Below are positions 59,549-63,216 of a DNA stretch of 64,000 nucleotides, one piece after another. The DNA comes from Sphingomonas sp. (GTDB lineage Bacteria; Pseudomonadota; Alphaproteobacteria; Sphingomonadales; Sphingomonadaceae), in NCBI RefSeq assembly GCF_017304635.1, contig NZ_JAFKMA010000001.1, positions 124,001-188,000 of the forward strand, given 5' to 3'. The position numbers were made by a program, and so were the translations under genes. The first letter of the stretch is position 1; every line of letters begins with the position of its first letter. Under the pieces are notes generated by a model, which saw only the letters and a program-made list of their open reading frames with translations, had not been told where the DNA came from and did not search any database.

Positions 59549-60388
59549 ATGAAGATCGCGGTGATGGCGCCGGCCAATCGAGTCGACGAACATGCGCTCG
59601 ACGCGGTGCCTGCACTCGCCGCCGAATACGGCGTCGAACTGGTGATCGACCCGCAATGCTGGGCAAGCGGTGGCGGCCATACTTGGGCGGGTCCGGATGA
59701 GTTGCGCGCGGATACCTTCCTTAAATATGCCAACGACCCGAGCTATCAGGCGATCTGGTTCGCGCGCGGCGGCTACGGGTCGAACCGGCTGTTCCCGTTG
59801 ATCTTCCCGCATCTCGAGGAAGCGGCGCGGCACAAGAGCTATGTCGGCTATTCCGACATGGGTTTCCTGCTCGGCGCGCTGTACGCGAAGAAGATCGGTC
59901 ATCCGATCCACGGTCCGATGCCGATCGACATCAATCGCAAGGTCGGCGGGCGCGAGTGCGCGGCGCGGAGCCTCGCCTGGCTGACGAAAGGCGACAAGAG
60001 CGCGCTCGAACCCGGCATCGTCGGGTCGGGGCGGCCGGCAGCGGCATTCAACCTGTCGATCCTCGATTCGTTGATCGGCACCAAGTGGCTACCCGATCTC
60101 GCCGATCACGACTTGCTGGTCGAGGAGGTGGACGAGCATCTCTATCGCGTCGATCGGATGATGTTCCATGTCGCCAATGCGACGCAATTGGCGCGGATCG
60201 CGTCGCTCCGGATCGGCAGCGTCAGTTTGCCCAAGCAGGACGGCCAGGCCGATTTCGGCCATACGCCCGACCAGATCGGCTGGGACTGGTCGAAGCTGAT
60301 GGGCGTGCCCTACGAAGGTCGCGCGAAGATCGGGCACGACGCCGCCAACCACGTCGTGCCGTTCGGTCAGGTCATCGCGAAGGACTGA
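59549..60388 (+). CDS. ldcA: Murein LD-carboxypeptidase (S66 family)
   Basis: A 279-residue S66 peptidase starting at ATG 59549. The nucleophile is Ser104 in VGYSDMG, with Glu194/195 (LLVEEVDEHLYR) and His264 (KIGHDAANHVVPFG) completing the triad; FARGGYGSNRL at 71-81 is the conserved strand-loop. It removes the terminal D-Ala from recycled tetrapeptides in the cytoplasm. Divergent from mpl, so both recycling steps share one promoter region. Confidence 0.9.
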   Translation: MKIAVMAPANRVDEHALDAVPALAAEYGVELVIDPQCWASGGGHTWAGPDELRADTFLKYANDPSYQAIWFARGGYGSNRLFPLIFPHLEEAARHKSYVGYSDMGFLLGALYAKKIGHPIHGPMPIDINRKVGGRECAARSLAWLTKGDKSALEPGIVGSGRPAAAFNLSILDSLIGTKWLPDLADHDLLVEEVDEHLYRVDRMMFHVANATQLARIASLRIGSVSLPKQDGQADFGHTPDQIGWDWSKLMGVPYEGRAKIGHDAANHVVPFGQVIAKD

Positions 60389-60904: not shown

Positions 60905-60944
60905 CGGCTGGCGCTTCGGACGCCTACACGCTATATCGCTTGCC

Positions 60945-61016
60945 ATGAACGCTGCGTTCGCCTCGACCACTACTACCACCCTCCCGGGTTTCCGGGGGGC
61001 TGTCGGCACGCGCTAG
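60945..61016 (+). CDS. thrS leader peptide with five consecutive Thr codons
   Basis: A 23-codon reading frame: M-N-A-A-F-A-S, then five Thr (ACC ACT ACT ACC ACC at 60966-60980), then L-P-G-F-R-G-A-V-G-T-R and TAG. A run of threonine codons 118 bp before the threonyl-tRNA synthetase start is the hallmark of attenuation: a ribosome stalled for charged Thr-tRNA changes folding of the downstream RNA. A TATATC box at 60932-60937 would place transcription initiation at or next to the ATG, so the leader may be leaderless, as described for trpL in Sinorhizobium. Confidence 0.85.
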   Translation: MNAAFASTTTTTLPGFRGAVGTR

Positions 61017-61032
61017 CCAGCGTCGCCGGCGA

Positions 61033-61087
61033 CCTCGCCCGGGAACGGGTGAGGTTGGCGTCCGCTCCCCCGTTCCAGTCTTTCTTC
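61033..61087 (+). terminator. thrS attenuator: antiterminator and terminator hairpins
   Basis: Antiterminator: CCTCGCCCG (61033-61041) with CGGGTGAGG (61046-61054), GGAA tetraloop and one G-U pair. Terminator: GGAACGGG (61042-61049) with CCCGTTCC (61069-61076), followed by AGTCTTTCTTCC as the U-rich tail. The two share bases 61046-61049, so they are mutually exclusive. A third segment in the leader (CCGGGGGGCTGTCGGC) is partly complementary to the antiterminator's 5' arm region and could pre-empt it. Confidence 0.75.
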
Positions 61088-61133
61088 CGGACGCCGGCTT
61101 GTGCATAGGCGCGGGCAAACGACAGGAACGGCC

Positions 61134-63155
61134 ATGAACATGCTCTCGATCACGCTTCCCGACGGCTCCGTGCGCGAGGTCGCGTCCGGCACCACGCCGG
61201 CGGACATCGCTGCGGCGATCGGCCCGGGCCTTGCCAAGGCGGCGATCGCGGCGCGAGTCGACGGCGAGTTGCGCGACATCACGCGCCCGCTGGAGGCGGA
61301 CGCCAACCTCGCGCTCGTCACCAGCCGCGACGAGAAGGATGCGCTGGAACTCGCGCGCCACGACTTCGCGCACGTGCTGGCGGAGGCGGTGCAGAACCTG
61401 TTCCCGGGCACGCAGATCACGTTCGGCCCGGCGACCGACGATGGCTTCTATTACGATTTCGCGCCGAAGGATCGCCCGTTCACGGAAGAGGACCTGCCCG
61501 CGATCGAAGCGGAAATGCGCAAGGTCATCGCGAAGGACGAGCCGCTGATCCGCGAAGTGTGGAGCCGCGCCGACCTGATCGCGCGGTGGCGCAAGCAGGG
61601 CGAGAGCTTCAAGGCCGAATGGGCCGCCGAGCTGCCGGACGGCGAGGAACTGACGGTGTACCGCGCCGGCCGCGGCGACGACGCCTGGCTCGACATGTGC
61701 CGCGGTCCACACCTCGCATCCACCGGCAAGCTCGACCCGCAAGCCTTTAAGCTCACGCGTGTTTCCGGTGCCTATTGGCGCGGCGATCAGAACAACGCGA
61801 TGCTCAGCCGTATTTACGGCACCGGCTGGCTCAACAAGAAGCAGCTCGACCAGCACCTGTTTCGACTGGAAGAGGCGGCCAAGCGCGACCATCGCAAGCT
61901 GGGGCAGGAGATGGATCTGTTCCACCTCCAGGCCGAAGCGCACGGTTCGGTGTTCTGGCATCCCAAGGGCTACATGATCTGGCGCGAGCTGGAGGCGTAT
62001 ATGCGCCGTGCGATCGACGCCGCCGGCTATCGCGAGGTCAAGACGCCGCAGGTGATGGACGCGCGCCAGTGGGAGCAGTCCGGCCACTGGGGCAAGTATC
62101 GCGAGAACATGTTCGTCATTCCCGACGAAGTGCCCAACGTCGAGGACGAGGGCCCGATCGTCTCGAACGATGCCGACTGGATGGCGCTCAAGCCGATGAA
62201 CTGCCCGGCGCACGTCCTGATTTTCCGCCAGGGAATCAAGAGCTACCGCGATCTTCCTCTGCGGCTGTATGAAAACGGCTGTTGCCATCGCAACGAGCCG
62301 CACGGTGCGCTCCACGGCCTAATGCGCGTGCGCCAGTTCACGCAGGACGACGCGCACATCTTCTGCCGCGAGGATCAGATCGTCGATGAGGTTCAGGATT
62401 TCTGCCGCCTGGCCGATCGCATCTACAAGGATTTCGGCTTCACCTATTCGATCAAGCTGGCGCTGCGTCCCGACAAGCGCTTCGGCAGCGACGAGATGTG
62501 GGACAAGGCCGAGTCCGAGCTCCGCGACGCCGTGATGCGCGCGGGCCTCGCGACCGAGCAATATGGCTGGGAGGAACTGCCGGGCGAGGGGGCGTTCTAT
62601 GCGCCCAAGCTCGAATGGCATTTGACCGATGCGATCGGACGGACGTGGCAGGTCGGCACGATCCAGTCCGATCGCGTGCTGCCCGAACGGCTCGACGCGA
62701 GCTATGTCGGCGAGGATGGCGAGCGCCATCGCCCGGTGATGCTCCACCGCGCGATCTTCGGGAGCTACGAACGCTTCATCGGTATCCTGATCGAGCATTT
62801 CGCCGGCAAGCTGCCCGCTTGGTTGGCGCCGGTACAGGCTGTCGTCGCGACGATCGTGTCGGACGCCGACGAGTATGCCGGTCACGTCGCCGCCGAATTG
62901 AGGCAGGCAGGGCTCCGCGTCGACACCGATCTCCGCAACGAGAAGATCAACTACAAGGTGCGCGAGCACAGCCTGGCTAAAGTCCCCAATCTGCTCGTTG
63001 TCGGCAAGCGCGAGGCCGACGAAGGGACCGTCGCACTGCGCCAGCTCGGCAGCGACCGGCAGCAGGTGATGACGCTGGCCGAGGCGATCGCGAAGCTGAC
63101 CGGCGAGGCGCGCGCGCCCGATCTGGCGACCGCATCGGCGGCGACCGCGGCTTAA
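61134..63155 (+). CDS. thrS: Threonyl-tRNA synthetase
   Basis: A 673-residue class II synthetase, ATG 61134 with AGGAA upstream. TGS domain (about 1-62), editing domain with [16 protein letters not shown] (about 70-220), catalytic core with zinc ligands in MNCPAHV (Cys near 362), motif 2 [39 protein letters not shown] (motif 3), and the anticodon-binding domain (about 570-673). Expression is predicted to respond to Thr-tRNA charging through the upstream attenuator. Confidence 0.98.
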
Positions 63156-63216
63156 TTGCCGCGGCCCGCTTTCGTTCGGGCGCGAAATTCACTATATTGG
63201 TGAAACGACAACCTAC

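Follow-up and report, generated by a model that had tools for sequence, protein, structure and literature searches.

The thrS gene of the window (i.e. the whole stretch of 64,000 nucleotides analysed here) is preceded by a short ORF with five consecutive Thr codons, by a promoter box placed so that the transcript is predicted to start on the A of the leader ATG or close to it, and by three RNA helices, A, B and C. The arms of these helices covary in our alignments of related thrS leaders, and B by its position excludes the other two. We consider it likely that this element is a ribosome-mediated leader-peptide attenuator of thrS carried on a leaderless transcript, in which B would be the antiterminator and C the terminator. 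Its features in the window are the following.

60932..60937, + strand: -10-like box TATATC, 7 nt before the leader ATG.
60945..61016, + strand: Thr-run leader peptide ORF of 23 codons, MNAAFASTTTTTLPGFRGAVGTR, with the stop codon TAG.
60966..60980, + strand: five consecutive Thr codons, ACC ACT ACT ACC ACC, read directly from the sequence.
60980..60999, + strand: hairpin P1 (60980-60987/60992-60999), from the MFE fold, beginning on the last Thr codon.
61002..61030, + strand: hairpin E, which encloses the stop codon of the leader (61002-61011 paired with 61020-61023 and 61025-61030), from the MFE fold, a candidate “2:3” pairing.
61030..61057, + strand: hairpin A (61030-61041/61046-61057), the antiterminator of the first-pass annotation, read as a pairing and covarying.
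61042..61076, + strand: helix B (61042-61049/61069-61076), the terminator of the same annotation, a perfect 8-bp pairing that covaries.
61052..61100, + strand: helix C (61052-61064/61088-61100, with a conserved core 61057-61064/61088-61095), 13 bp, crossing B.
61077..61088, + strand: U-rich stretch AGTCTTTCTTCC, which follows B and precedes the 3' arm of C (window-type order).
61134..63155, + strand: thrS, threonine--tRNA ligase (TIGR00418, 635 bits for a cut-off of 384).

The 23-codon frame with its five consecutive Thr codons ahead of thrS had been pointed out in the first-pass annotation, and it is borne out at 60945-61016 (codons at 60966-60980). In the whole 3.18-Mb genome about 20 places have a run of five ACN triplets in one frame or another (34 overlapping matches); at this frequency the 200 nt ahead of a single gene would contain about 0.0006 such runs on the right strand. 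ACT accounts for 22% of the Thr codons in leaders (172/769; 114 leaders, with a few duplicates) and for 3% in thrS genes (13/436; 16 genes), an excess that perhaps keeps the Thr run unpaired. No SD was seen for ORF 60945-61016, and the leader peptide has no family match in NCBIfam. Rfam covariance models gave five weak hits between positions 60000 and 62000 of the window (E up to 10) and three in ten relatives (E up to 1); none is a Thr leader or a T-box, and these two identities were dropped. The next gene after thrS is infC (IF-3, TIGR00168). Its ORF starts about 41 nt past the thrS stop and carries a TATATT-like box at its upstream end (63156-63200); given this box and this gap, infC may be transcribed together with the attenuated thrS or apart from it.

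The upstream region of the window thrS was compared with two sets of regions. The first comes from a contig scan that kept 80 thrS loci, 79 of which were used (L077 begins inside the gene). The second consists of 100 upstream regions from family genomes, taken among the best matches listed of 292 matching genomes, and therefore leans to thrS genes resembling that of the window. A region was flagged when a short ORF has at least four Thr in seven residues, which retained 36 of the 180 regions; two of these, L083 and L135, flagged by their Thr count, were dropped by eye. The 6-of-8 Thr stretch found upstream in L003 was left unflagged by the short-ORF filter; by reading, it lies on the strand opposite to a Val-rich gene located upstream, and it was not counted. 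A Thr-run leader is present in 34 of the 180 thrS upstream regions: 16/79 in the first set, 17/100 in the second, and the window itself. It is absent from the five nearest thrS relatives of the window, from 14 loci (L002-L015) whose thrS is 81-89% identical to that of the window, and from all 21 loci with a thrS identity of 65% or less. On a thrS tree of 78 proteins obtained by a quick method, leader presence requires 9 changes, at least 6 of them forced by starred branches, and it is clustered (0/500 shuffles as low); one mostly Erythrobacteraceae branch has the leader in 10 of its 11 rows. The simplest reading of this patchy presence would be repeated loss. Several of the leader-free loci L002-L015 have a promoter-like CTATAT closer to the gene, and L002, L004, L005 and L014 share a promoter-like TTGCCTATAT followed by GGCATAAGC near the thrS start codon.

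From the 34 Thr-run leader regions we built a covariance model, R1, of 127 positions, with P1, A and C as pairs. R1 matches 105 of the 298 genomes sampled in the family of the window, distributed over 37 of 96 genera. It matches 48/196 genomes in an order sample that overlaps the family sample, and 4/385 in a class-wide sample, all four from the same family. The element is always upstream of thrS and on the same strand in the 34 genomes for which both coordinates are listed (34/34): 29 are at 28-73 nt from thrS, one is at 122 nt, and four, from one genus, are at 581-592 nt. A weak second match (G230:C50, E 0.007) has no Thr leader. Among the 105 matches, 98 were analysed, i.e. the window, 17 earlier regions and 80 more, and the other seven were read by eye. 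Each of the 80 further matches has a Thr-rich ORF in the model frame (80/80), and five of them repeat a leader already present among the 34. Downstream, 79 of the 80 show in some frame a P-D/N-G motif like that of the thrS start, which is a loose test. The 98 family leaders all encode at least four Thr, and 65 of them five in a row, a conservation that is partly built in since R1 was trained on Thr codons; the promoter and helix B are outside the model.

In the genus with the long distance, the element stands directly ahead of a 168-aa ORF and may therefore control two genes. This ORF (MRYYIDTEFNGTDGQ...) was read in L234 90-830 (G006) ahead of thrS, and a similar ORF start is found in L269, L270 and L272. 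It has no Pfam match at E 0.01; we take that of L234 to look like a DEDD exonuclease. L236, from another genus, is the only one of the 80 further matches with no thrS-start motif in the stretch examined, and it may be alike.

The promoter region was analysed in the 98 leaders, which represent 97 distinct upstream stretches and 36 genera. A -10-like hexamer of the [CTG]TA type ends 6-7 nt before the in-frame ATG in 86 of them, while other spacings are found in 2-10 leaders each, except for 20-21 nt (19 leaders). TTG or nTGA is located exactly 17 nt upstream of the hexamer in 77 of these 86 leaders, and SD-like words appear in only 3. The conserved -10 spacing and the scarcity of SD-like words support a leaderless transcript: a start 6-7 nt past the -10 box puts the 5' end on the A of the ATG. 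The proposal that TATATC, 7 nt before the ATG, would start the transcript at the leader ATG thus holds as to placement, 86/98 leaders having the same spacing. In the window itself the -35 slot reads TGGCGC, which is not TTGA-like and leaves no recognisable -35, and simple promoter and terminator scans found nothing at the leader. As described for S. meliloti, the trpL transcript likewise starts on the ATG (PMC7298713), and work on Caulobacter reports 375 leaderless mRNAs (PMC4117421).

The leader of the window folds better than most of its shuffled versions (z -2.84, 3/200 as good). Of the two arms of C, the 5' one is enclosed by the arms of B and the 3' one is located past them, thus B and C are mutually exclusive. 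B also overlaps the loop and the 3' arm of A, and consequently excludes A. RNAalifold, run on all 34 rows, proposed 12 pairs and missed B and C; the helices were named by hand after this result and then counted. The GGGG:CUCC pairing given by RNAalifold, between the 3' arm of P1 and the 3' arm of B, was not adopted, there being no changes on both sides.

Covariation was counted on 28 of the 34 sequences, the six others having insertions or the window-type order (window, L084, L160, L027, L029 and L020). For A and C together 92.7% of the cells are paired, with 20 two-sided changes against 7.4 after shuffling (0/500); for B the values are 83.0% and 17 against 8.4 (0/500). In the 97 matches other than the window (96 distinct) B is paired in 87.2% of the cells and shows 59 two-sided cells against 23.4 (0/500 shuffles), and pairing drops to 29-68% when B is slid. 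For P1, A and C, to which the alignment was fitted, the same 97 matches give 91.2% paired cells and 109 two-sided cells against 32.5 (0/500). Taken separately, and with the same reservation on the fit, the P1 columns are 87.1% paired (96 distinct sequences) and the C columns 96.5%, with two-sided changes at 5 of the 6 pairs of C. The number of B pairs with two-sided changes is not unusual (225/500 shuffles for the 28 sequences, 117/500 for the 97), and all the covariation shuffles ignore relatedness. A test by best-stem picking and arm swapping was biased by the picking, and it was replaced by the same search on chimeras. In this alignment-free check 390/1114 chimeras for B and 274/1114 for C are as good as the own sequence, a weaker result but in the same direction. 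Hairpin E, tried as a covarying “2:3” stem, gave no signal (574/1114 chimeras as good).

These data bear on the two competing hairpins of the first-pass annotation. Its antiterminator arms, 61033-61041/61046-61054, are found inside the longer hairpin A; A and B do share bases and both show compensatory changes among the sphingomonad thrS upstream regions, where the Thr run is also conserved, but the third covarying helix, C, had been missed. As for its terminator, 61042-61049/61069-61076 with a U-rich tail, the pairing and the stretch AGTCTTTCTTCC are present, while the terminator role is unsupported family-wide, B being under the stalling logic the structure that gains, as described below. 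The earlier observation is confirmed, and its reading as a whole is partly supported.

To follow the balance between B and C we computed folding energies with one or the other held in place and the RNA under the ribosome removed, some helices being set by hand in the set of 34. Without a ribosome, dG(B)-dG(C) has a median of +3.2 in this set; a ribosome placed on the stop codon brings it to +6.2, on the first Thr codon to +1.9 and on the last one to -1.1. From the stop to the last Thr codon, 30 of the 34 sequences move towards B and 14 change sign. In the set of 97, with columns taken from the alignment, 92 sequences were used, five being skipped for too few B pairs. Their median goes from +7.5 kcal/mol at the stop to +1.4 at the last Thr codon, 88 sequences moving towards B and 3 away. 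C is favoured at the stop in 87 of the 92, B at the stall in 36, and both hold in 32. When the freed segment is shuffled, the shift is -3.95 against -6.14 for the real sequences of the 34 set (173/680 shuffles as low) and -4.83 against -6.15 for those of the 92 set (311/920 shuffles as low). Shuffles reproduce much of the shift; thus its direction is consistent, but a good part of it is due to the G-rich composition. For the window copy all four states favour C, and the stall shift is -2.8 (6/20 shuffles as low).

We then considered the T residues that follow each helix. After the 3' arm of C, T peaks at 61% at position +6 for a background of 16% (97 matches). The U-run that follows C consists, in most relatives, of only CTT plus 0-2 T, which is weak for an intrinsic terminator, and 10/97 have neither CTT nor TTT within 20 nt after C. 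Clear U-runs at this place, from TTTT to TTTTTT, are those of L216 (GCGCTTTTTTCG), L261 (GCGCTTTTTCC) and L280 (GCTTTTC). After B, T is found at no fixed place, with at most 41% at any position. The best 7-nt stretch has about 2.8 T on average after B and after C alike, and T-content alone does not assign the roles of the two helices. A T-rich stretch after B and before the 3' arm of C is found in five sequences: the window, L084, L266, L160 and L264, the last having the same leader as L027 and only a short stretch, TGCCTTCCC.

The stalling logic together with the fixed CTT after C favours, for the family, a model in which B is the antiterminator and C a weak terminator. Transcription would begin at the ATG of the 23-codon ORF. 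If Thr-tRNA(Thr) is short, the ribosome would stall in the Thr run and free the RNA just downstream (the 3' arm of P1 and beyond), which could pair with the 5' arm of A. This arm being occupied, the loop and the 3' arm of A would be available for B; the formation of B would bar C, and the transcript would continue into thrS. If Thr-tRNA is plentiful, the ribosome would reach the stop codon, A would form and B would be blocked; C and its short U-run would then form and transcription would stop. Judging from the sequences, the sphingomonad thrS leader probably raises the level of the enzyme when the supply of charged threonine-tRNA falls; the response to charged tRNA, the termination of transcription and the role of each helix are predicted on the same ground. 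The U-run follows B in the window and in a few relatives, thus the B and C roles of the family may not apply to the window copy. A more specific version, which we put forward tentatively, is that of a relay attenuator on a transcript starting at the leader AUG: the stall would break A, B would form and C would be forbidden, i.e. the signal would be inverted twice. In the lineage of the window the U-run would have moved from behind C to behind B, and terminator and antiterminator may have swapped roles.

It is possible, though we would give it less than an even chance, that the window subgroup keeps the roles first proposed, with A as antiterminator and B plus AGUCUUUCUUCC as terminator. These roles need a ribosome at the stop codon that hinders A, and a stalled one that leaves A free. 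In the MFE fold of the window hairpin E does not overlap A, and stalling therefore need not break it; the T-rich stretch after B in the five sequences above is also in line with these roles, as is the equal frequency of T behind B and behind C over the family as a whole. The energies depend on where the ribosome is assumed to end. At the length where only B has been made, the window ensemble in which B is not forced is better by 0.7-4.7 kcal/mol according to the assumed ribosome edge. If the edge is set 19 nt beyond the stop codon's first base, the gap between B and the whole ensemble is no more than 0.7 kcal/mol in the window, and there is none in L084; with an edge at 13 or 16 nt, the window ensemble without B forced is better by 1.9 or 4.4 kcal/mol, which argues against B as terminator. 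Moreover, the 3' arm of C would be conserved in the window subgroup without obvious use, and in the rest of the family CTT follows C at a fixed place and stalling tips the balance to B.

An unlikely explanation, but one with some merit, is that leader and helices act post-transcriptionally or via Rho, stalling altering Rho access, RNA decay or thrS translation. The U-runs are indeed weak in most members, the terminator scan found no terminator-like site in the window, and the thrL hairpin of S. lividans is likewise described without a U-rich sequence (PMC8079986). Against this explanation stand the position of C in the window, where it ends at 61100, 33 nt before the thrS start, and the several relatives in which C is directly followed by four to six U. 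Finally, that the Thr run arose by chance and has no regulatory role is practically refuted already by its conservation, the strongest evidence being the 105/298 family genomes: five-ACN runs do occur elsewhere in the genome and the leader is missing in the five closest thrS relatives, but the Thr run, the promoter spacing and the three covarying helices are conserved in the family sample.

In other bacteria thrS is controlled by different means. The E. coli thrS translational operator and the Firmicute thrS T-box respond to ThrRS or to uncharged tRNA; they involve no leader peptide, and the window has no T-box match. Leader-peptide control of synthetase genes is a kind already known, thrS included. 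The first-pass annotation, which held that synthetase genes are rarely controlled in this way, understated it: such leaders are described for thrS, trpS, leuS and alaS in Streptomyces, cysS in Rhodobacterales and trpS in Caulobacter. The closest likeness is thrL of S. lividans TK24, a leaderless, Thr-containing leader ORF before thrS whose termination signal is also unclear; as far as its description can be compared by eye, it differs by its host (Actinobacteria), its 18 codons with two Thr, and its single hairpin (PMC8079986). The uORFC-8-2 motif, found before cysS in the single order Rhodobacterales, is also an alphaproteobacterial element ahead of a tRNA-synthetase gene for which ribosome-mediated attenuation is proposed. 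Its description gives it two Cys codons and two prominent stems, with a third stem that is rare and lacks covariation, and a 3' U run (PMC8632094), whereas the sphingomonad element has three covarying helices, one excluding the two others, and a promoter that points to a leaderless transcript. Likened by its description, trpL of S. meliloti is a leaderless attenuator whose ORF transcript starts with the ATG and in which stalling at the cognate codons favours the antiterminator; in contrast to the thrS leader it has 14 codons and controls a biosynthetic operon (PMC7298713). Attenuators of the classical type are described for trpS and leuS in Streptomyces and pheST in gammaproteobacteria, which also control synthetases; compared by description, the sphingomonad element has a further helix (PMC1262725). 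In Caulobacter a leader ORF is reported before trpS (PMC4117421). No sphingomonad thrS leader was found among the matches listed in the open-licence literature.

The family described here is a sizeable and testable one for synthetase attenuation, present in about one third of the genomes sampled in one alphaproteobacterial family and supported by covariation for three competing helices. It ties synthetase attenuation to the leaderless translation of a regulatory ORF. Its presence or absence among close relatives opens the study of how attenuators are gained, lost and rewired, and the window subgroup may show a terminator and an antiterminator changing places.

At 61099-61125 the window has a GC-rich stem whose core is GCCATGGC/GCATAAGC-like. 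Stems of this type, 22-62 nt before thrS, are found in 32/34 leader regions and in 39/146 leader-free regions (176/2920 in shuffles), with words that were picked after looking. One idea is that this stem is a ThrRS-binding site.
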